Origin: Pseudomonadota bacterium
GTDB taxonomy: Bacteria > Pseudomonadota > Gammaproteobacteria > Steroidobacterales > Steroidobacteraceae
DNA: 7,727 nucleotides
Direction of reading: 5' to 3'
Assembly: GCA_003242275.1 (NCBI GenBank)
Contig: QGUX01000171.1
Coordinates: 1 to 7,727, forward strand
Under the pieces are notes generated by a model. It was not told the origin of the DNA. It saw only the letters and a program-made list of their open reading frames with translations, and did no database searches. Shown here piece by piece: positions 1 through 7,727 of the stretch. Positions within the stretch are counted from its first letter, which is position 1. Every line of letters starts with the position of its first letter. The translations under genes were made by a program, and so were the position numbers.

Positions 1-641
1 AGGTGGGGCCGCGGCTGGTGTCCTTCGCGCGCACCGAGACCGAGCAGATCCGCTGGGGCGGTAACTTCCGCCGTGCCTTCGGGCAGCGTGCCGCCGCAAG
101 TCCCGCCCCGGCGCAGCAGCGCATCGTGTACAGCGAGGTCAGCGGCATGAATGACCTCGAAGGCGCCGGCTGGCGGCTGAACGCCAACTTCACCCACACC
201 TGGCAGCTCGCCAACCGCCGCCTGGCGCGCGCGGGCCTGCCGGAACAGGACCTGCTGTCTGGCGGCGCCGGCAGCGGCACCGGCCAGTCGCGCCACAACG
301 TGCAGTCGCGCGTCGGCCTGGCCTTCAATGGCACCGGACTGCAGCTCACCGTGAACTGGAAGAGCCGCTCGCTCATCACCGCCGGCACGGCGGAGGATCC
401 GAACGACATCGTGTTCGACCCGCTGCTGCGCATCGACCTGAATGCCTTCACGGACCTGGGCATGCTGTTCCCGTCCGCCGGGCTGCTGAAGGGTTCACGC
501 CTGACGCTGGGCGTGGAGAACCTGTTCGACGCCAAGCAGCGCGTGCACGACCAGACCGGCGCGACGCCGCTGCGCTACCAGCCGTACCTGCTGAACGCGC
601 TGGGGCGGACGATCTCGCTGTCGTTGCGCAAGGCGTTCTGA
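1..641 (+). CDS. TonB-dependent outer-membrane receptor, C-terminal part (5' partial)
   Basis: This is the end of a 22-stranded TonB-dependent receptor, which imports large or scarce substrates across the outer membrane using energy from TonB-ExbB-ExbD. The reading frame is open from base 3 to the stop at 639-641, with no start in the window, so the plug and most of the barrel lie upstream. About 212 residues are visible. They alternate in the way of barrel strands, contain the family-typical stretch GVENLFDAKQRVHD near the end, and close with a terminal Phe after SLSLRKA, the usual signal for BAM-dependent insertion. The acidic/aromatic segment NDIVFDPLLRIDLNAF and the phrase RWGGNF resemble receptors of Steroidobacter and sphingomonad type. 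The substrate cannot be inferred. No clear intrinsic terminator follows. Family is confident; subfamily is not. Confidence 0.88.
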   Translation, partial: VGPRLVSFARTETEQIRWGGNFRRAFGQRAAASPAPAQQRIVYSEVSGMNDLEGAGWRLNANFTHTWQLANRRLARAGLPEQDLLSGGAGSGTGQSRHNVQSRVGLAFNGTGLQLTVNWKSRSLITAGTAEDPNDIVFDPLLRIDLNAFTDLGMLFPSAGLLKGSRLTLGVENLFDAKQRVHDQTGATPLRYQPYLLNALGRTISLSLRKAF

Positions 642-776
642 GCCGGCGGGCGAAGGAAGGCAGCGCCTTGGCGGACGGGGGGTGGGGTGATGCCAGCGCC
701 CGCATGAGTCCGGCGCATGCGAGCGACGCGAAACTCGTTTGAAGGCCGGCGGCGCGCAGGCTGTCATGGTTCCACT

Positions 777-781
777 GGAGG
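777..781 (+). promoter_or_regulatory. Ribosome binding site of the DUF2917 gene
   Basis: GGAGG lies 5 bases before the ATG at 787. It decides the start against the in-frame upstream candidates TTG 739 and ATG 766, neither of which has such a site. Confidence 0.7.
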
Positions 782-786
782 ACACC

Positions 787-1167
787 ATGGAACGATTGCA
801 GCTCCCGGCCGAACAGCATTTCCGGCTCGCGGGCGGCGCTGGCTGGCGCATCTCCTGCCTCGACGGCCTGGTGTGGATCACCACGGCGGGCGAGCTTCAT
901 GACTGGGTGCTGCTGCCGGGCGAGTCGGTGGACGTCTCCGGGCGCGGCATCCTGGTCGGTACGCTCGAGCCGAGCGAAGTCGGGATCGAGCCGGTGGCCG
1001 GCGCCGCGGCGGCGCCGTTGCCGAGTGTTTCCGCGGTGGCGCGCTGGCGGGCCCTGCTGGAACTGTTCGCGCGACGCGCATGGAACACGCCGCCGGTGGG
1101 CTGGCCGGCCTTCAGCGCACCGGCAGTGCCGTCATCCGCCCGCGGCGCGGCGCGCGACGCGTCCTGA
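787..1167 (+). CDS. DUF2917 domain protein
   Basis: This 126-residue protein belongs to the DUF2917 family, whose function is not established. The domain covers about residues 8-68: a small beta-rich, cupin-like segment with WRISCLDGLVWITTAGELHD (20-39), then the LLPGESVDV turn (42-50) and GILVGTLEPSEV (54-65). After this comes an Ala-rich linker and a helical, Arg-rich C-terminus (83-100) that tapers into low complexity. There is no signal peptide or membrane segment. The ATG at 787 is chosen because of the GGAGG just upstream. The gene stands 145 bp after the receptor and about 130 bp before the LysR-type gene, on the same strand; I recall DUF2917 genes occurring next to LysR genes, which would suggest a regulatory pair, but this is inference. 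Confidence 0.72.
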   Translation: MERLQLPAEQHFRLAGGAGWRISCLDGLVWITTAGELHDWVLLPGESVDVSGRGILVGTLEPSEVGIEPVAGAAAAPLPSVSAVARWRALLELFARRAWNTPPVGWPAFSAPAVPSSARGAARDAS

Positions 1168-1295
1168 GTGCAGTCCCCGCGGCGCGTAGCCGGTGCGCTT
1201 CCACCACACCGCCGGCGGGCCGCGGGCGCCCGGTCGCGTGGCTCGCGCGCCGCGCGGCGGCATGGCAGGATGCGGCCGTGCACGCAGAAAGCCCC

Positions 1296-1574
1296 ATGAA
1301 CATCGAAGGGCTGTCGCTGGACCAGATGCGGGTGGCGCTGGCGGTGGCATCCACGGGCAGCTTCCCGGCCGCGGCACGGCAGTTCCGGCGCGCACAGTCG
1401 GCCGTGAGCTGCGCCATCACCACGCTGGAGGCACAGCTCGGCACGCGGCTGTTCGACCGCAGCGGGCCGCGCGCCCGCGTCGCGCCCGAGGGCGTGGCGC
1501 TGCTCGCCGAGATGGCGGCCATCGTGGCGCGCGCCGATGCGCTGCGGCAGCAGGCGCAGCAGCAGCAGCAGTAG
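1296..1574 (+). CDS. LysR-type regulator, DNA-binding domain only (truncated)
   Basis: The 92-residue product is the N-terminal third of a LysR-type transcriptional regulator. Residues 6-64 form the winged helix-turn-helix: SLDQMRVALAVASTGSF, AAARQFRRAQSAVS as the recognition region, then LEAQLGTRLFDRSG. Residues 65-88 are the linker helix that normally dimerises. Family members are about 300 residues, so the whole effector-binding domain is missing. The frame stops at TAG 1572-1574 straight after a CAG run giving QQAQQQQQ. ATG 1296 is taken as the start; GTG 1278, behind AGGA at 1267-1270, is a good alternative and would add six residues. The protein could still bind DNA as a short dimer, or the gene may be dead. 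Just after the stop, another frame looks like the beginning of the effector domain, which favours a frameshift followed by deletion. Confidence 0.7.
   Translation: MNIEGLSLDQMRVALAVASTGSFPAAARQFRRAQSAVSCAITTLEAQLGTRLFDRSGPRARVAPEGVALLAEMAAIVARADALRQQAQQQQQ
1552..1573 (+). repeat. CAG-rich microsatellite at the LysR truncation point
   Basis: A run of CAG triplets interrupted by one GCG unit (…CAGGCGCAGCAGCAGCAGCAGTAG) sits exactly where the LysR frame ends. Such tracts slip during replication, so it is a natural site for a frameshift or for loss and gain of the stop. Confidence 0.6.
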
Positions 1575-1642
1575 CCGTTGTCATCGATACCTTCCACGTG
1601 ACCGGCCGGTTGCTGATCGGCGCGTGGCCGGATGAAAATCCA
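1571..1642 (+). pseudogene. Possible out-of-frame remnant of the LysR effector domain
   Basis: In the frame one base back from the LysR gene, the bases after the CAG run read VAVVIDTFHVTGRLLIGAWP. In many LysR proteins the effector domain begins with a strand and helix of the form VVxDTFxPTxRLxxAL, so VVIDTF and GRLL fit that position. The similarity fades after about 24 codons, and that frame ends at TAA 1691. This suggests a frameshift in the CAG tract plus a later deletion of the remaining effector domain. It rests on a short resemblance from memory. Confidence 0.3.
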
Positions 1643-1661
1643 TGCCGCGGGCGGGAACACG

Positions 1662-1708
1662 TGCTAAGTTGGGCAGACCGAGCCCTCCAATAACTACAAC
1701 AACAATCC
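1662..1708 (+). promoter_or_regulatory. Possible promoter and SD-less leader of the desaturase gene
   Basis: TGCTAAGTT at 1662-1670 resembles an extended -10 element (TGn plus TAAGTT), with no convincing -35. It is followed by an AC-rich leader (1690-1708, AATAACTACAACAACAATC) with no Shine-Dalgarno sequence before ATG 1709. The unstructured A/C leader may replace a Shine-Dalgarno site. The -10 assignment is weak. Confidence 0.25.
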
Positions 1709-2701
1709 ATGTCCCGCCCCGCTTCCCCGCAGCTGTCGCGCCGCGACCTGGACCGGCTGCGCACGCCGGTTCCCTTCCACAACCTGACCAAGATTCCACT
1801 GTTCGTGGCGCTGATGGCGCTGCTGACCCTCATGGCATGGGAGGCCGACTCTCCCTGGGTGCTGGTGCCGCTGTATGCCGCCCTCGGCTACCTGTGGATG
1901 GGCATGGTGACCTTCATGCACGATGCGCTGCATTACACGCTGTTCCGCTCGCGCGCGGCGAACTGGATCTTCGGCGTGCTGTGCATGCTGCCCATCTTCG
2001 CCACCTTCGTGGGTTTCCGCGAGGACCACATCGAGCACCATCGCCACAACCGCTCGCCGAGGGACCCGGATGCCTTCACCATGGGCCAGCGCCGCTTCGG
2101 CGACTTCGTGCTGTTCTACGCCTATGCGCTCGCGGGCGGCCTGCTGAGCTTCATCCACTTCAACTTCATCTATCCGTTCAGGCGCTTCGGCCCGAAGCTG
2201 TGGGCCATCCAGCTCTTCGAGCTGGCGCTCAAGGCGCTGGTGTACTGGCTGGTGCTGTCGGCCGCCGCGCGCCACGGCGTGCTGGGCAAGGCGCTGCAAG
2301 TGTGGCTGTGGCCGGTGTTCGTGCTGTCGCTGCTGAATTCGATGCGCTTCATCGCCGAGCACTACGGCACGCCCTGGAATGCCGGGCAGATGGCGGGCAC
2401 GCGCACGGTGGTCTCCAACCGCGTGCACTCGTTCTTCTGGAACAACATCAACTGGCACATCGGGCACCACGTGTATCCCTCGGTGCCCTGGTACAACCTG
2501 CGCCGCCTGCACCGGCTGCTCGAGCCGCAGATCGCCGCCTGCGGCGCGCCCGTGGACAGGAGCTACCTGGCGGTCTACTGGGAGGCCCTGAAGCGCGGCC
2601 CGGAATCCGCCGGGACCGTGGCGGACATGCTGGCCAGGAAAAACCCCGCCGCGGCCGAAGCCCATGCGGCGGGGTGCGCGAAGGCCGCGACGGCGGCCTG
2701 A
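1709..2701 (+). CDS. Membrane fatty-acid desaturase family protein
   Basis: This 330-residue integral membrane di-iron enzyme belongs to the fatty-acid desaturase superfamily, which includes acyl-lipid desaturases and related hydroxylases and ketolases. They use O2 and electrons from a ferredoxin or similar carrier to modify acyl chains in the inner membrane. The three histidine boxes are all present: HDALH at 71-75, HIEHH at 107-111 (with H113 following), and HIGHH at 250-254. An extra conserved-looking His (H218, in RFIAEHYG) may be a further metal ligand. Hydrophobic segments lie near 29-44, 50-70, 86-103, 133-157, 168-186 and 196-212, as expected for the fold. The exact substrate and regiospecificity cannot be read. 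The last 20 residues (KNPAAAEAHAAG...) are low complexity and coincide with a terminator for the opposite strand. The gene converges on the minus-strand PEBP gene with only 6 bp between the stops. Confidence 0.85.
   Translation: MSRPASPQLSRRDLDRLRTPVPFHNLTKIPLFVALMALLTLMAWEADSPWVLVPLYAALGYLWMGMVTFMHDALHYTLFRSRAANWIFGVLCMLPIFATFVGFREDHIEHHRHNRSPRDPDAFTMGQRRFGDFVLFYAYALAGGLLSFIHFNFIYPFRRFGPKLWAIQLFELALKALVYWLVLSAAARHGVLGKALQVWLWPVFVLSLLNSMRFIAEHYGTPWNAGQMAGTRTVVSNRVHSFFWNNINWHIGHHVYPSVPWYNLRRLHRLLEPQIAACGAPVDRSYLAVYWEALKRGPESAGTVADMLARKNPAAAEAHAAGCAKAATAA
2639..2674 (-). terminator. Intrinsic terminator of the PEBP gene, inside the desaturase 3' end
   Basis: Read on the minus strand, CCCCGCCGC (2674-2666) pairs perfectly with GCGGCGGGG (2652-2644) to make a 9-bp GC stem around a 13-base loop, followed at once by TTTTT (2643-2639). 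This is a textbook rho-independent terminator. It lies 33 bp past the stop of the minus-strand PEBP gene. On the plus strand the same bases encode desaturase residues 311-322. Confidence 0.75.
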
Positions 2702-2707
2702 GGCCTG

Positions 2708-3367
2708 CTACTGCTGCGGGCGCGGCGGGGCGCCGGCGCCGGGTCCGCCCCCGCGGCCCGGCATGGGCGCATCACTTTCGTTGCGGAAGCGCCCCACATA
2801 GGCCGCCTTGGCCACGACCTTGCCCTTCATCGCCTCGAGCAGTTCGGCGCGGCTGGCGGTCTCGGGCAGGTCGAGCTTCGAGCTCAGCGCATAGAATTCG
2901 AACACGTAATGGTGGTAGCGCGGGCCGTTAGGCGCGCCCATGCCCATGTAGGCGTTGCCGCGCGCACCGCGGCCGTTCACCGATCCGGCGGGCAGGCTGC
3001 CTTCGGGGATCTCGGTCACCGGGCTGTTCGCCGGGATGTTCCAGGCCACCCAGTGCAGGACGTCATCCGGATTGCCAGCCATCGCGACCTCGATGTCGTG
3101 CATGATGATCGCCATGGTCTCGGCATTGTCCGGGACATTGCTGATCCTGAAATCCGGCTGGCGGTTCTCGCCGTAGTAGCTGAACTTCAGCGGCACCACG
3201 CCGCCGTCGGGGAAGGCCTTGCTCTCGATGAGCAGCGGCACGAGGCCCATGCCTCCGCCGCCACGCGGCGGGCCGCCCGCACCACCACCGGACTGCATGG
3301 CGTGCGCCGGCAGGCCGAACGCGCACAGCGCCAGCAGCACGGCGCCGATCCTGATCCTCGCTCTCAT
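2708..3367 (-). CDS. Secreted YbhB/YbcL-type PEBP (Raf kinase inhibitor-like) protein
   Basis: This 219-residue member of the phosphatidylethanolamine-binding protein family is related to E. coli YbhB and YbcL; the bacterial role is poorly defined. Residues 1-23 are a signal peptide (MRARIRIG, hydrophobic core, AHA cleavage site), so the protein is probably periplasmic. A Gly-rich linker (26-40) leads into the PEBP fold: LLIESKAFPDGGVVPLKFSYYGEN (45-68), then IIMHDIEVAMAGNPDDVLHWVAWNIP with H90/D91 and H105 lining the expected anion pocket, then GAPNGPRYHHYVFEFYAL (144-161) as the second signature. The tail (200-219) is Gly/Pro-rich. The start at 3367 is supported by GAGGGGGA about 7 bases upstream and by the signal peptide; a longer frame reaching 3637 would lose both. 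The pocket DPDAP-like motif is diverged. It is probably monocistronic, with its own promoter and terminator. Confidence 0.87.
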   Translation of the reverse strand: MRARIRIGAVLLALCAFGLPAHAMQSGGGAGGPPRGGGGMGLVPLLIESKAFPDGGVVPLKFSYYGENRQPDFRISNVPDNAETMAIIMHDIEVAMAGNPDDVLHWVAWNIPANSPVTEIPEGSLPAGSVNGRGARGNAYMGMGAPNGPRYHHYVFEFYALSSKLDLPETASRAELLEAMKGKVVAKAAYVGRFRNESDAPMPGRGGGPGAGAPPRPQQ

Positions 3368-3387
3368 GACTGGGTCCCCCTCGTCGT

Positions 3388-3403
3388 GATGGATGGATGG
3401 ATG
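3388..3403. repeat. Four tandem GATG units in the PEBP leader
   Basis: GATG is repeated four times without interruption (seen as CATC on the PEBP-coding strand). It lies between the predicted -10 element and the Shine-Dalgarno site of the PEBP gene, so it would be in the 5' untranslated region. Confidence 0.7.
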
Positions 3404-3412
3404 AGGGGTCCG

Positions 3413-3418
3413 AGTATA
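3413..3418 (-). promoter_or_regulatory. Candidate -10 element of the PEBP gene
   Basis: On the minus strand, TATACT (3418-3413) matches the sigma-70 -10 consensus at five of six positions and lies about 45 bases before the start codon at 3367. No good -35 is found at the usual distance, so an activator or another sigma context may be needed. Confidence 0.4.
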
Positions 3419-3455
3419 GCCAGAGGCACCTGAACCCCGGCCGAATGGTTGCGGC

Positions 3456-3743
3456 TCAGCCGCGGGGCTCGGCGGGCCTGGCCCTCTGTCGCTGCACTTC
3501 CTGCACTTCGGCCAGCTTGAGGCCCGTCTGCTCGGCGACATGCGGCAGCACGGCATGGGCCGGATCCTTGGGCAGGCGCAGCTGGTGGAGCTTCTCCCAC
3601 ATGCGCACGCGCGCTTCGGGCGTGGAACTGGTGTCACGCTGGTCGAGCAAGGCCTGGTGTCTTGCGGCCTCGGCTTCCAGGCGCAGCCGTTCCAGCTGTG
3701 CGCGACGGTCGGTGGCGAAATCGCCGGGCGGCGGATTGATCAT
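3456..3743 (-). CDS. Uncharacterised 95-aa soluble protein, helical
   Basis: I do not recognise a named family. The protein is highly charged and Arg/Glu/Gln-rich. Residues 11-35 (TDRRAQLERLRLEAEAARHQALLDQ) form a likely amphipathic helix or short coiled coil. Residues 40-62 contain STPEARVRMWEKLHQLRLPKDP, and a third helix (66-88) ends in QEVQRQR. There is no signal peptide, membrane segment or Cys. The ATG at 3743 has a good Shine-Dalgarno sequence (GGGAG, about 6 bases upstream). The segment STPEARVRMWEKLH looks like a conserved gammaproteobacterial small protein, but I cannot name its role. The gene begins only 12 bases after the U-tract of the upstream terminator, so it depends on read-through from the RRM gene or on a promoter inside or near that gene. 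Confidence 0.68.
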   Translation of the reverse strand: MINPPPGDFATDRRAQLERLRLEAEAARHQALLDQRDTSSTPEARVRMWEKLHQLRLPKDPAHAVLPHVAEQTGLKLAEVQEVQRQRARPAEPRG

Positions 3744-3755
3744 TTCTTCTCCCGG

Positions 3756-3783
3756 AAAACAAACAGGCCGGCTTGCGCCGGCC
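3756..3783 (-). terminator. Intrinsic terminator of the RRM protein gene
   Basis: On the minus strand GGCCGGC, loop GCAA, GCCGGCC make a 7-bp perfect stem with a GNRA tetraloop, followed by TGTTTGTTTT. It starts 16 bases after the RRM stop codon. Confidence 0.85.
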
Positions 3784-3799
3784 CGTTCGTCGATACTGC

Positions 3800-4108
3800 T
3801 TACCAGCGGTTTCCGCCGCCGCCGTATCCACCGCGGCCACCGCCGCGGTTGCCACCGTTGCCACGGGGCTTGTCCTGCGCCTCGTTGACGCGCAGCGGAC
3901 GCCCGCCCAGGTCCTTGCCATTGACGGCCTGGATGGCGCGCGCCGCATCGGCGCTGCTCATTTCGACGAAGCCGAAGCCGCGCGGGCGGCCGGTCTCACG
4001 ATCACTGGGCAGGGCCACGGACTCGACCGTCCCGTGCTGCGCAAACAGCGCGCGGACCTGGTCTTCGGTGGCGGAAAACGGCAGATTGCCGACATAGATC
4101 TTGGCCAT
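3800..4108 (-). CDS. Glycine-rich RRM RNA-binding protein
   Basis: This 102-residue cytoplasmic protein is a single RNA recognition motif with a Gly/Arg-rich tail, the layout of bacterial and cyanobacterial Rbp proteins. These are thought to act as RNA chaperones and are often cold-responsive. RNP2 is IYVGNL (4-9) and RNP1 is RGFGFVEM (43-50), with the aromatic residues Y5, F45 and F47 that stack on RNA all present. The RRM spans residues 2-76. The tail (81-102) is PRGNGGNRGGGRGGYGGGGN followed by RW, an RGG-like region. The start at 4108 is supported by the MAKIYVGNL opening and by a purine-rich GAGAGAAGAG before it. The gene has its own terminator. A long stretch upstream with alternative hairpins could be a structured leader, as seen for cold-regulated genes, but no promoter was located. 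Confidence 0.92.
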   Translation of the reverse strand: MAKIYVGNLPFSATEDQVRALFAQHGTVESVALPSDRETGRPRGFGFVEMSSADAARAIQAVNGKDLGGRPLRVNEAQDKPRGNGGNRGGGRGGYGGGGNRW

Positions 4109-4218
4109 GTAACTCTTCTCTCTCTAGGACTGTTGATAACGCAATGACAGGGCAACGGGTCGTAGAGAGCCGCTCACACGACGGCAGGACGATCCAGCAA
4201 CCTGACACCTGATCGGCA

Positions 4219-4255
4219 GGCGTTTCGGCTCGAGCGAAGCGCCTTTCCTGGCGCT
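4219..4255 (-). other. Two mutually exclusive hairpins upstream of the RRM gene
   Basis: The arm at 4235-4243 (CGAAGCGCC) can pair with 4219-4227 (GGCGTTTCG; one G-T wobble, loop GCTCGAG), or its part 4238-4243 (AGCGCC) can pair with 4250-4255 (GGCGCT, loop TTTCCT). The two folds cannot coexist. On the minus strand this lies 110-150 bases before the RRM start, in a possible leader. Function is unknown. Confidence 0.35.
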
Positions 4256-4455
4256 GAAGGACGAACGGACGTAAGACGATCAAGGGCAAGTGTACCGGTT
4301 TTCAGGGGGGCCGGGGCGATATTTGCGCGAGGCGCGGGACTGCGCTGCAGCATCGCTGGGCCCCAGGTGAGGGCCGCGGTGCATCCTGGCGGGTACCCGA
4401 TCCTGCGCAACCGCATGAAAACACGGCCTTTCTCGACACGGAGGAGTCGGGGATG

Positions 4456-4488
4456 CACGAGACCGTGCCACTACGTGGCACGTTCGTG
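4456..4488. repeat. Long imperfect inverted repeat in the intergenic region
   Basis: CGTGCCAC (4464-4471) and GTGGCACG (4475-4482) are perfectly complementary around TAC, and outer arms CACGA (4456-4460) and TCGTG (4484-4488) extend the stem after a small internal loop. There is no U-tract, so it is not a terminator. It could be a hairpin RNA, a protein-binding site or a REP-like element. Confidence 0.5.
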
Positions 4489-4635
4489 AGCGTAAGGGAA
4501 CAGGAGCGTGGCATCACCGGGTCAGACCGGAGGACCGCCTTCGGCCGTCATCATCCTGGCACTGAGCTGAAGCAGGGAGCCGCGCAAGCAGACTTTCATC
4601 CAGATCGGTTCTAACCGGGCTTGTCGGGGACAGCT

Positions 4636-4652
4636 GAATCAAGCTTTGATTC
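4636..4652. promoter_or_regulatory. Perfect inverted repeat before the methylase-like gene (candidate operator)
   Basis: GAATCAA (4636-4642), GCT, TTGATTC (4646-4652) form a perfect 7-bp dyad, 14 bases before ATG 4667. A weak promoter-like pair, TTGTCG (4621-4626) and TTTGAT (4645-4650, 18-base spacer), would place the dyad over the -10 region, as expected of a repressor site. Operator function is inferred. Confidence 0.4.
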
Positions 4653-4666
4653 TGCCACGCCTGCCT

Positions 4667-6487
4667 ATGTCGAACTTTCTCGAAGCACACGCTTACCTGG
4701 TCAGGAATTCGGCGCTGCATCCACACGATGCAGCGCTGCTGGTGACGCGTCTTGCCGTCTGGGTTCATCTCACGGCCAGCTTTGAACTGCCTCCCCTCCT
4801 ACGCGCTGATCCGGGGGGCTGGCCGCTGACAAGCAAGGAGCTTGAGTCGATCTTTCTTGAGCTTCTGGAGAATCCGATCCCCGAGGCAGCGCGTTGCGTT
4901 CTTGAGACGGGCGTCCCATCGGAACATGCGGACTTGTCGGAGAAGCAGCTTGGCACATTGCTTCGACACGTGTGGAGAACCGCCAGGTGGGGCAACACCT
5001 TCAGTTCCACCGGCTTTGAAGCATTCCTGGCGAAAGTCTGGAGCGTGGCGCCAAACAGGGAAGTCATTCCGGCGCTGTCAGTGGCGGATCTCCTGGTGCA
5101 ACTGGCAGATTGTCCCGCGAATCAGCCGTTGACGTGCCTGGGCGACGGTGCCCAATCCGTCGCCATCGCGGCGATGAAGCGGAGTCAGCCTGTCATCCTG
5201 TGGACTGAGGACGTTCCGGTCTGGGCAAGTGCTTATGCCGTGCTGTCCGGCAGCCACTTGACGCTCAGGCGCTGCGCGTTCCCGGCTCCTGAGAGCGAGC
5301 TCACCGGCGACTCGGGGATTGGCATCGCCGTTCCGCCATTTGGACTGAACCTGCGCGGCAATACCCGTCATCGGTCAACCCCTGGGTATGTCCGGTACAT
5401 GACTGCCTACCGGCAGGCAGCGCGAAAGAGGCTGGTTTGCGTGACGCCCAATCGGGCGCTGTTCGCGTCCGGTGAAGAGGCGGCGCTACGCCAGGATCTC
5501 GTCAATCGCGGTGAACTCGCGGCGGTTGTTTCATTCCCTCCGGGGCTGCTGACAGGTACATCCGTGCCATTCGCCGTGCTGCTTGTGGAGCCCGGTTGCG
5601 GCGAACGGCAGATCCGCGTACTCAACGTCGATGAAACCGTGCACGTTGATCAAGTGGGCCTCGCACGCCGGCGACACCGTTCATTGACAGACAGCCCCGC
5701 ACTGGTGGAACTGATCCGCAGGCCAGTCCGGCCCTTCGGGCGGGTTGTGCCCATCGAGGAGATTGCACGACATGATTTCATCCTGACTCCGGGGCGCTAT
5801 CTGCATGAGCCGGAGTCTGGTTGGACACGCGGCGCGACACCGCAGTGCATGCACGTGCGCCTGACGGACCTCGTCACCATCCTTCGTCCACAGGCGCTTC
5901 CACCTCCGACATGTGGTGCGCCAGTCCTGGTGGCAGAGATGGGCGCCTCTGATTTGTCGCGAAGCGACTACAGCTCGCCCGCCGGACGGGAACGAGCGAC
6001 AGACGCGCACGCGTTGGAGAAGCGAAAGGACCACCTCCTGAAACCGGGTGATGTGTTGCTGGCTGTCAAAGGCGACACCGGTGCGACTGGCATCTTCGGT
6101 GGCGATGGACGGCCATGCGTAGCGTCACAATCACTGCTGGTTCTCCGGATGCACACCGACCCTCGGGGACGTCCAGGTCCCGGGAAGGCGTTGATCGACC
6201 CGGCCGTACTGCTGATGCTGTTGCGGTCGCCACCGGTACAGGCATACCTGAGATCAGTCACGTCCGTGAGCACCGTGCCTGTCATCAGAGCGCAAGACGT
6301 CGAGCGGATGCGAGTTCCCCTGTTTCCGATCGCGCAGCAGAAGCAGCTGCTGGAGCTGTTTCACGAACTATGCCGTCTGAACAGAGAGATCGTGGCCCTG
6401 GAGCGTAAGCGTTTCGAGGTGGAAGCCTGCTTCTGGGAGTCTGGTGGTTGGACGGGCGAGGCAGGTCGCGCCCAAGACCGGACATAA
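4667..6487 (+). CDS. Degenerate N6-adenine methyltransferase fused to an HsdS-like specificity domain
   Basis: The 606-residue product combines parts of type I restriction HsdM and HsdS. Residues 1-135 are a helical N-terminus. The methyltransferase-like core follows: ADLLVQLADCP (140-150); a motif I counterpart CLGDGAQSVAIAAM (157-170); a motif IV counterpart AVPPFGLN (221-228); then VTPNRALFASGEEAALRQDLV (259-279) and FPPGLLTGTSVPFAVLLVE (290-308), typical of the N6_Mtase family; and the FILTPGRYL end signature (371-379). Residues 396-560 match one type I target recognition domain: LLKPGDVLLAVKGDTGATG (457-475), VASQSLLVL, then VPVIRAQDVERMRVPLFPIAQQ (537-558). A coiled coil (560-590) closes it. 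Motif I lacks the usual DPxCGSG form and motif IV has Val for the catalytic Asn/Asp of NPPF, so activity is doubtful. ATG 4667 is chosen over TTG 4646; neither has a Shine-Dalgarno site, so it may be leaderless. It probably heads an operon. Confidence 0.8.
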   Translation: MSNFLEAHAYLVRNSALHPHDAALLVTRLAVWVHLTASFELPPLLRADPGGWPLTSKELESIFLELLENPIPEAARCVLETGVPSEHADLSEKQLGTLLRHVWRTARWGNTFSSTGFEAFLAKVWSVAPNREVIPALSVADLLVQLADCPANQPLTCLGDGAQSVAIAAMKRSQPVILWTEDVPVWASAYAVLSGSHLTLRRCAFPAPESELTGDSGIGIAVPPFGLNLRGNTRHRSTPGYVRYMTAYRQAARKRLVCVTPNRALFASGEEAALRQDLVNRGELAAVVSFPPGLLTGTSVPFAVLLVEPGCGERQIRVLNVDETVHVDQVGLARRRHRSLTDSPALVELIRRPVRPFGRVVPIEEIARHDFILTPGRYLHEPESGWTRGATPQCMHVRLTDLVTILRPQALPPPTCGAPVLVAEMGASDLSRSDYSSPAGRERATDAHALEKRKDHLLKPGDVLLAVKGDTGATGIFGGDGRPCVASQSLLVLRMHTDPRGRPGPGKALIDPAVLLMLLRSPPVQAYLRSVTSVSTVPVIRAQDVERMRVPLFPIAQQKQLLELFHELCRLNREIVALERKRFEVEACFWESGGWTGEAGRAQDRT

Positions 6488-6505
6488 GGAGCAGGAGGCC
6501 GGTCC

Positions 6506-6511
6506 AGGAGG
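6506..6511 (+). promoter_or_regulatory. Ribosome binding site of the phosphatase gene
   Basis: AGGAGG lies 10 bases before ATG 6522. It fixes the start there rather than at the in-frame GTG 6444, which would overlap the preceding gene by 44 bases and lacks a site. Confidence 0.7.
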
Positions 6512-6521
6512 TAAGGTTGGC

Positions 6522-7589
6522 ATGACGGGTTTGTCCATCGAATCGGCATTTGCAAGGCCGCTTCCCCCGGGTCCGCTCGACATCATTGGAGACGTTCATG
6601 GCGAGATCGGGTCACTCCGACGCCTGCTGACGCTGCTGGGCTATGACGGGCGAGGGGACCACCCGCAAGACAGGACGCTGGTGTTCGTCGGCGATCTCAC
6701 TGATCGAGGCCCGGACAGTGTGGCGGTCGTCCTGCTGGTTCGCGAATTGTGCCGACGCGGCCGGGCGTTCTGCATTGCCGGCAATCACGAACTGAACCTG
6801 CTGCGCTTGGCGGCGAAGGACGGCAACGGCTGGGCCTTTGCCGACAACCATGATCGCAGGGCGGGAAGGTACCTGCAGTCTCGCGATGCGCAGCCGGACG
6901 AACGCCGTCTCGTCGTGGATTTCTTCGCCGGACTGCCGCTGGCGCTGTTGCGCGAGGACCTGCGCATTGTGCATGCGTGCTGGAGCGAGGAGTCCTTGTC
7001 GCGGATCGCCTCTTCTGGCGCCTCCACGCTGCGCGCCGCTTTCGAGCATTTCGAAGCAGAGACGGATCGCCAGCTCGCTGCGCTCGGCCTGCTGGAACGA
7101 TCACGTGCCGAGAAGGACGCTCACGACCTCAGGGATGCCAGCGCCCTGCCGCCCCTGCTGGAGGCTACGGCGCACGTGGATGAACTGCGGCAGATGGGCA
7201 ATCCCGTGCGTGTGGTGACGTCCGGCGTTGAGCGTGTTGCCAGGGTACCGTTCTTCAGCAGCGGCCAGTGGCGGATGGTGGATCGCATTGCGTGGTGGCT
7301 CGAGTACGGCGAGGAGACGCCGGTTGTCGTCGGGCATTACTGGCGCTGGCCTATGGCCGTGGACCGGAAGGCTTTTGGGAAGGACGGCCCGGACCTGTTC
7401 GCGACCGTGCGGCCACATGAGTGGCTCGGGCCCCGCCGCAACGTGTTCTGCGTCGATTTCGGCATTGGCCGCCGCTTCCGTGAGCGTGAGCTTGGCCTCG
7501 CCGAGGGGAGTTGCGGGAGGCTGGGCGCGCTTCGCTGGCCGGAGCGTCAGCTGGTCTTCGACACCGGCCACAGGGCGGCAACGAAATAG
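6522..7589 (+). CDS. PPP-type metallophosphatase (calcineurin-like)
   Basis: The 355-residue protein is a two-metal phosphoesterase of the calcineurin-like superfamily, closest in motif layout to bacterial PPP protein phosphatases and PrpE/ApaH-type enzymes. All signature motifs are intact: GDVHG (23-27), GDLTDRGP (57-64), GNHE (87-90), then H151 in VHACW and H272 in VVVGHYWRW as the later metal ligands, and a closing VDFGIG (311-316). GNHELNLLRLAAKDGNGWAF (87-106) is characteristic of a proteobacterial subgroup. It is longer than PrpE/ApaH (about 245-280 residues) because of a helical insert at about 155-225 between the H151 and H272 motifs, which may set substrate choice. Substrates could be phosphoproteins or dinucleoside polyphosphates. 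It follows the methylase-like gene by 34 bp and has a strong ribosome binding site, so the two are probably co-transcribed. No signal peptide: cytoplasmic. Confidence 0.87.
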   Translation: MTGLSIESAFARPLPPGPLDIIGDVHGEIGSLRRLLTLLGYDGRGDHPQDRTLVFVGDLTDRGPDSVAVVLLVRELCRRGRAFCIAGNHELNLLRLAAKDGNGWAFADNHDRRAGRYLQSRDAQPDERRLVVDFFAGLPLALLREDLRIVHACWSEESLSRIASSGASTLRAAFEHFEAETDRQLAALGLLERSRAEKDAHDLRDASALPPLLEATAHVDELRQMGNPVRVVTSGVERVARVPFFSSGQWRMVDRIAWWLEYGEETPVVVGHYWRWPMAVDRKAFGKDGPDLFATVRPHEWLGPRRNVFCVDFGIGRRFRERELGLAEGSCGRLGALRWPERQLVFDTGHRAATK

Positions 7590-7611
7590 CCTGCGCCAGT
7601 GGCGCGCAGGC
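7589..7611 (+). other. Hairpin between the phosphatase and the next gene
   Basis: GCCTGCGC (7589-7596) and GCGCAGGC (7604-7611) form an 8-bp stem that starts at the last base of the phosphatase stop codon and ends 2 bases before the GGAGG of the next gene. There is no U-tract, so it is more likely an RNA processing or translation-control element than a terminator. Confidence 0.45.
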
Positions 7612-7626
7612 CTGGAGGTATACCGG

Positions 7627-7727
7627 ATGACTGACGAGAATGTATCGGGATGTCCGAGGTGCTGGCCGGAGAGCGCGGAGAATGCTTGGGCTGCGCTAGC
7701 GGGCCTGGTCCCGGAACGCCGGCTCGT
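7627..7727 (+). CDS. Unidentified protein with N-terminal CPRC motif (3' partial)
   Basis: The frame opens with ATG 7627, 8 bases after GGAGG (7614-7618), and stays open to the window end, giving 33 visible residues: MTDENVSGCPRCWPESAENA, then WAALAGLVPERRL. The CPRC pair (C9, C12) could be half of a zinc site. The rest is a likely helix. I do not recognise the family. It lies 37 bp after the phosphatase on the same strand and probably belongs to the same operon. The strong ribosome binding site supports it being real. Confidence 0.6.
   Translation, partial: MTDENVSGCPRCWPESAENAWAALAGLVPERRL

Follow-up and report, generated by a model that had tools for sequence, protein, structure and literature searches.

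The window analysed here is a stretch of 7,727 nucleotides from a member of the Steroidobacteraceae (Gammaproteobacteria; assembly GCA_003242275.1, contig QGUX01000171.1, positions 1 to 7,727 of the forward strand), and the gene in question encodes a protein in which a region resembling HsdM, the methylase (M) subunit of type I restriction-modification systems, is followed by half of a specificity (S) subunit, HsdS (Table 1). A sequence-only reading had described a methylase fused to a part of HsdS with a single target recognition domain (TRD), and we have found just such an arrangement, one recognition domain followed by a C-terminal helix region. The N6-adenine methylase signatures it noted are likewise retained, with Pfam N6_Mtase matching residues 254-382 (E-value 1.4e-11) through the C-terminal half of the model only (model positions 177-306). 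PADLOC profiles place the type I M region at about residues 255-382 and the type I S region (Specificity_I) between residues 396 and 582; among the best 25 of 40 PADLOC families, which served as a check for PglX and BREX, those on the window protein were type I M, type I S, mad5 and a control protein. The likeness to MAD5 of MADS systems, through the S-like C-terminal half, is weak (22.8 bits, far below the NCBIfam NF047740 cut-off of 400). By sequence, M chains in the Protein Data Bank align to residues 240-383 (best E-value 1.3e-06, the PacII M chain) and S chains align weakly (E-values 0.045-0.087); Pfam reported Methylase_S in four of the five relatives scanned, and none at E<=1 in the window protein.

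Table 1. Positions of the fusion gene, its parts and nearby features in the window
Feature	Position	Strand	Basis or remark
Palindrome CGTGCCACTACGTGGCACG	4464-4482		184 bp before start codon; possible operator, weak
Palindrome GAATCAAGCTTTGATTC	4636-4652		14 bp before start codon; possible operator, weak; shuffle p 0.097
Pseudo-methylase M/half-S fusion gene	4667-6487	+	606-amino-acid (aa) open frame
Methylase-fold region, residues 131-385, catalytically degenerate	5057-5821	+	Pfam N6_Mtase; family profile
TP-like site REVIPALS, residues 131-138	5057-5080	+	read from window protein
Motif I (S-adenosylmethionine, SAM, loop) remnant CLGDGAQS, residues 157-164	5135-5158	+	alignment column counts
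Motif IV remnant VPPF (vs N/D-PPF/Y), residues 222-225	5330-5341	+	alignment column counts
Half specificity subunit: one target recognition domain and C-terminal helix region	5822-6484	+	PADLOC Specificity_I; family profile vs S chains
Calcineurin-like phosphoesterase (metallophosphatase) gene	6522-7589	+	34 bp downstream of fusion

Catalytic motifs across the family

Gamma-class methylases bind SAM at motif I and have their catalytic site in motif IV, which typically reads NPP(Y/F/W) (PMC3874165, in part). The altered forms of both motifs that the sequence-only reading had reported for the window protein, and the missing TP motif, are all confirmed, and the losses extend across a family of which we have aligned 63 core rows (54 proteins and nine genes read from loci, the window included). 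The motif IV position holds F in 49 rows, L in 7, I in 4, V in 2 and C in 1, and N or D in none; it is N in seven of the seven HsdM rows of the same alignment. At the position of the motif I Asp, which is present in 7/7 HsdM rows, the family has C (39), L (13), I (7), T (3) or A (1) and never Asp. The glycine loop of motif I has been lost too, and at its former place stands a substitute conserved pair, an aromatic residue in 60 of the 63 rows and D or E in 62, which the window protein keeps in part only (G159, D160). The motif II acid is retained (E in 59 rows, D in 1), the base-stacking residue after the PP of motif IV is not strictly kept (F in 37/63 rows, the rest mostly L, I or M), and A136, in the window's TP-like site, sits in a column that is P in 97% of core rows. 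HsdMs encoded on the relatives' plasmids read NPPF in 12 of the 12 checked, a count outside which stand the HsdM of L008 and the plasmid of L027.

Judged by these residues, the window protein has neither the N/D-PP-F/Y/W of motif IV nor the DxxxGxG of motif I by which active HsdM-type enzymes are recognized, and it is predicted to be a pseudo-methylase that belongs to an old, maintained family in which methyl transfer has been lost. A single damaged gene can be ruled out, because both losses are found throughout the family, and an alignment check for an Asp or Asn in the motif IV role turned up none in the 63 rows, so the earlier view that this is not a modification enzyme stands. In one cyanobacterial pair (L022 and L023) the codon test gave a dN/dS of 0.36 for the whole gene, 0.46 for the N-terminal and methylase part and 0.21 for the S part, and the pair is under purifying selection.

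Relatives were gathered by tblastn of the window protein against plasmids, with colinear matches, and then by searches with those relatives; a protein search with the Oscillatoria relative yielded 58 proteins, and about 8000 candidates were scored in each protein search. The core rows come from cyanobacteria, proteobacteria, Campylobacterota and metagenomes. Partial proteins P0015, P0052, P0054 and P0062 were left out of the counts and the tree; P0054 is unreadable at motif IV and the other three lack N or D there. The frameshifted Roseomonas gene (L004) is a core member by tblastn and stands outside the alignment, and the Synechococcus gene (L033), which joined after the counts (the conserved-residue count has 64 rows), also lacks N or D. 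The number of core plasmids is at least ten among the matches listed, the Synechococcus member having been found later. In the Roseomonas locus (7018-9176), otherwise typical, the fusion and the DUF4258-like gene discussed below both appear frameshifted, and the Roseovarius fusion, which lies beside DUF4258 and type I genes, is split in two frames.

In a quick tree, with long branches flagged, the 63 core rows form one clade (SH-aLRT 100) apart from HsdMs and from the M/S fusions of Firmicutes. The window protein scores 219 bits with a family profile from which it was held out, against 38 for an HsdM profile and 73 for a Firmicutes fusion profile, and its membership is therefore not due to chance. 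No end branch in the tree is longer than that of its row (2.39), and it keeps 41 of 70 family-conserved residues, compared with 35/68 in Roseovarius, 37/69 in Synechococcus and 64/67 in Aromatoleum. Its cluster in the protein search comprises 7 sequences from 8 contigs. With the window protein alone as query, the protein search returned only itself, and a further one with profile A2 returned the window and three partly covered proteins; genome-contig searches with the window and Aromatoleum proteins gave no match, and plasmid searches with P0043 and P0058 gave no further core plasmid among the matches listed. A phage search gave no match and viral-contig searches no family member; the sole viral match (L009) is an ordinary HsdM with intact motifs.

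The family has the fold and the order of parts of HsdM, and its profile matches chain A of PacII (7VRU; E-value 3.4e-30) and EcoR124 M (7BST; 7e-29), from which it differs in the two catalytic positions described above and in the part before profile position ~117, which is unmatched (the match runs from there to 400); the profile also matches HsdS chains. The Firmicutes M/half-S fusions (L005 5692-7503; L008 5311-7161; L025 6878-8776; L026 6117-7946; L027 6410-8158) form a separate group outside the 63 rows. Their motif IV appears in stages, DYPF and NFPF (both with an active-looking motif I), HPPL, VPPF and FPPI, and N or D is kept in two of the five; the group seems to be losing catalysis still, or to have lost it in parallel.

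Recognition half

Ordinary type I systems gain new specificities through recombination between their recognition domains (PMC3874165, in part). We compared the divergence of the two halves of the fusion in 56 rows (54 proteins, L001 and L002; 1537 of 1540 pairs fall in bins). Mean identities of methylase core and recognition domain are 40/40, 51/51, 66/65, 84/84 and 93/92 percent per bin, and in the lowest bin 31.8% for the core and 39.5% for the recognition domain; in none of the six bins does recognition identity fall more than 1.4 points below that of M. Three Geobacillus systems served as a control: their HsdMs are 97.6-98.8% identical and their S subunits 38.5-41.7%, and within the latter some 50-residue stretches fall to 14% while conserved ones next to them lie at 84-100%. 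By this comparison, the faster divergence or swapping of the TRD that is typical of S subunits is not seen in the family.

The recognition half also does not resemble the specificity subunit encoded beside it. In none of 7 loci did the fusion's recognition half match the HsdS of the same locus best, and in five of these that HsdS was unmatched at E<=0.1 (the weak matches are in Oscillatoria, 6e-6, and Sulfuricurvum, 0.04). We therefore rejected the notion that the fusion reads the site of the neighbouring HsdS; that it reads the marks of the adjacent system, or that its specificity follows that of HsdS, appears unlikely. The sequence-only reading had raised a reader of modified or unmodified DNA, a suggestion that the relatives do not bear out, given this result and the inconstant F after PP. 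The recognition half probably serves a fixed DNA site or a fixed partner.

Neighbouring genes and palindromes

On the plasmids examined, the family is usually tied to type I operons. Whole-plasmid searches (of at least ten core plasmids among the matches listed) found an HsdM other than the fusion on nine of ten core plasmids, and an HsdR-type ATPase (PF18766) on nine of ten among the matches listed. As background, 3322 of 72,556 plasmid records (4.6%) match one HsdM query at E<=1e-10, and the naive chance of at least nine of ten at 5% is 2e-11, a figure that ignores plasmid size and relatedness and includes one plasmid of the ten that was found through DUF4258. The exception is Synechococcus, where the only other N6_Mtase match is partial (22.3 bits in a 915-aa frame); on this plasmid, the sole core plasmid found without a type I system, the fusion has a DUF4258-like gene on one side and a Swt1-type HEPN gene on the other (L033 5001-7816).

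The fusion adjoins and precedes codirectional type I genes in 5/10 core plasmids (L001, L003, L004, L006 and L007), with gaps of 75 bp in Aromatoleum, 76 bp across the record origin in Aliivibrio, ~0.6 kb in Roseomonas and ~80 bp in Roseovarius, and with overlapping genes in Sulfuricurvum. Elsewhere it lies downstream of type I genes (Oscillatoria), ~4.9 kb upstream of them with other genes in between (Annamia), ~23 kb from them (Geminocystis) or divergent from an HsdM (Cyanobacterium). Firmicutes fusions are upstream of type I genes in three loci, with a small gene between in one, and the Firmicutes records searched (L027 left out) have HsdM and the HsdR-type ATPase in four of four. We note that in L022 (6195-6392) and L023 (8395-8592) the fusion is followed by a 65-aa gene, ribbon-helix-helix-like by eye, and then by an integrase.

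The first gene upstream of the fusion is a small DUF4258-like one in L001, L002, L004, L006, L007 and L033, that is in 6/11 core loci, or in 5/10 of those found independently of DUF4258. Against the Pfam cut-off of 25 bits, the proteins of L001 (26.2) and L002 (25.6) score above and those of L006 (18.2) and L007 (20.3) below; the L033 protein is not reported by Pfam and is linked, as are those of L006 and L007, by sequence likeness among the small proteins. The Synechococcus locus was found by a search with the small protein alone, and the next gene there proved to encode another fusion, whose motif IV reads CPPW. Matches to the small protein occur in 23 plasmid records, and of 18 new ones six were read, which held one fusion (L033) and five other genes. 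On an Acinetobacter plasmid (L034 5031-6029) such a gene stands before one for an LRAT-type protein, and on a Moraxella plasmid (L035 5001-7061) before an LRAT-like gene (by eye) and a viperin-type antiviral gene. DUF4258 is listed among BECR-fold toxin families with activity unknown, in a table that gives the antitoxin first in order (PMC11980606), and the partners of E. coli DUF4258 lie strictly downstream (PMC10790755). In the window, a stretch at 4453-4614 that by eye might have been a DUF4258 remnant was discarded when the profile gave nothing.

Palindromes near the promoters of these units are in excess over 11 units (Fisher p 1e-5, L036 left out). In L001 a 34-bp palindrome (8582-8615) lies over a -35-like box, with TTGACT in its centre, and in L002 one of 49 bp lies over a -10-like CATACT box; each is matched in length in 0 of 129 tiles. 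In L007 one of 17 bp ends 10 bp before the start codon (as long in 0/84 tiles). The Firmicutes fusions give p 0.036 over five loci (L005: 25 bp, 0/86). In the window, an arm as long as that of GAATCAAGCTTTGATTC occurs in 9/49 tiles, the arm length of CGTGCCACTACGTGGCACG is reached by 12 of 200 shuffles, and the arms of CGTGCCACTACGTGGCACG were not found in 41 loci. A candidate shared operator, ATCAR-N3-YTGAT, has 5 matches in 332 kb, four of them within 350 bp upstream of units; two matches defined the pattern, the distance was set afterwards and one match is at a DUF4258 unit with no fusion, and we regard it as a lead only. Upstream of the Subdoligranulum fusion at 6410 in L027, two copies of ATGGTTATTAAAAACCA, found by eye, flank a consensus-like TTGACA/TATAAT promoter in what looks like a double operator. 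A 45-bp palindrome with 20-bp perfect arms lies upstream of position 1513 in L032, before a DUF4258 gene that has no fusion beside it.

Roles the fusion may have

We propose, as a tentative reading that may quite possibly be right, that the fusion serves type I systems as a non-catalytic accessory or controller and binds DNA at its own operator. On this view, a natural M-half-S fusion no longer capable of methyl transfer would travel with type I operons; it may dimerise through the S helix, and two copies of its single recognition domain would then bind a fixed bipartite palindromic site. Binding at the promoter of its own unit would amount to autoregulation, and the fusion would control the type I operon without catalysis; in loci with a DUF4258 toxin-like gene ahead of it, it may be the downstream partner of that gene. 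The window copy may still work as such a controller. If methyl transfer is lost, binding is what remains for selection to act on, and control of this kind would explain the locked recognition domain, the position ahead of type I genes and the palindromes. The parts would permit a homodimer in which the two recognition domains are inverted, like that of the half-S EcoR124NT system, which likewise has one recognition domain, reads a symmetrical site and is active (PMC3320862, in part). Engineered M-half-S fusions of S. aureus, in which one recognition domain is similarly joined to M, are also described as active (PMC6158711, in part); unlike these active M-half-S and half-S forms, the family lacks catalytic residues and its recognition domain is not swapped. 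PacII-type M1M2S systems resemble the present arrangement in that a type I operon is accompanied by two distinct M-type chains, with NPPF and NPPY in the M1 and M2 families (PMC9613975, in part), whereas here the second M-like chain is dead and has a half-S of its own.

Several observations weigh against this proposal. The palindrome signal comes mainly from three loci, the window copy reaching only p 0.097, and L006, L022 and L023 have no notable promoter-proximal palindrome. The L001 palindrome scores as a minus-strand terminator too, and the promoter match of L002 is no better than in shuffles (1 found, mean 1.0). DUF4258 units with no fusion show palindromes as well (p 0.002 over 4), and the palindrome binder may for that reason not be the fusion. 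The comparison of the two halves ran without an active M/S fusion family as control and without the window row. PF18766 has no match on the Synechococcus plasmid, the 7.7-kb window holds no type I genes, and a profile of five small proteins gave no significant match in six frames of the window, L003 and L022-L024. With no DUF4258 or type I genes nearby and 41/70 conserved residues, the window copy may have drifted in function. Nevertheless, present evidence favours the controller over the two readings considered next.

In the first of these, which we consider doubtful, the fusion is a guard: the dead methylase, through its retained type I methylase shape, would bind phage anti-restriction mimics of DNA such as Ocr and ArdA, and thereby free a DUF4258 RelE-fold, RNase-like toxin that stops growth. 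This would explain why the methylase fold is kept without catalysis and why the partner is toxin-like; the tie to type I systems on core plasmids, the toxin family of DUF4258 (PMC11980606, in part), the upstream position of DUF4258-like genes in core loci and the existence of guards of restriction systems, PrrC and PARIS (PMC12707154, in part), speak for it as well. The likeness to PrrC, PARIS and the C proteins of restriction systems (PMC12707154, in part) would be one of role only. However, DUF4258 is undetected in five of 11 core loci, the window included, DUF4258-like genes also precede unrelated genes (5/6 further contexts read), and the conserved recognition domain would be superfluous in a pure decoy.

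Comparably doubtful is a part in assembly, in which the dead fusion would join HsdM, HsdS or HsdR in mixed complexes and restrain restriction, for example while a plasmid becomes established in a new host. Presence on plasmids would thereby be explained; core plasmids also carry type I genes, often with the fusion ahead, and the activity of the engineered S. aureus fusions indicates that M-half-S chains can fold and assemble (PMC6158711, in part). Against this, the fusion is unlike the neighbouring HsdS, and its two halves diverge as one unit.

We consider it less likely still that the fusion combines the parts of decoy and operator-binding protein, luring DNA mimics and, until they bind, keeping a DUF4258 RelE-fold toxin restrained at its own operator. 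It is similarly improbable that the window copy, and only this one, is a remnant in decay that no longer has a role: its long end branch, its 41/70 conserved residues, the lack of partner genes in the window and its low G+C at third codon positions (GC3, 0.68) fit decay, but the frame is full-length, the cluster counts 7 member sequences on 8 contigs, and Roseovarius and Synechococcus, the latter beside DUF4258, keep their conserved residues no better. Least likely by far is a divergent active methyltransferase with an unusual motif IV, perhaps acting on another base or substrate, for although 60/63 rows keep the motif II acid and some Firmicutes fusions pair NFPF or DYPF with an active-like motif I, all 63 core rows lack both the motif I Asp and the motif IV N/D, and motif IV is NPPY in the M2 subunits of PacII type that make m4C (PMC9613975, in part).

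Among the full-text literature matches listed, a scope outside which subscription papers and preprints fall, we found no description of such a family. Most annotations of its genes read N-6 DNA methylase or subunit M/S, and methylome and defence surveys may therefore count them as working enzymes. If the controller proposal is correct, the family would be an overlooked fourth, non-catalytic type I component on mobile plasmids, with a fixed DNA target unlike the ever-changing HsdS, and it would offer a handle on how type I systems are controlled upon entering a new cell or on how bacteria notice blocked restriction. Were the fusion instead a decoy, restriction failure would lead to growth arrest via a pseudo-enzyme derived from the restriction system itself.

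Lastly, the rest of the window encodes a DUF2917 protein, a fatty acid desaturase, a PEBP protein and an RRM protein, and another frame, with no Pfam match, resembles by eye the end of a TonB receptor. An RNA element was considered and rejected, none being found at the gathering threshold. A foreign origin of the fusion gene would fit its GC3, which is below that of the seven other frames measured (0.77-0.93). No metallophosphatase is named beside the fusion in the annotated loci of relatives. In the window, the metallophosphatase gene has a likely ribosome site by eye, and its co-transcription with the fusion is possible.

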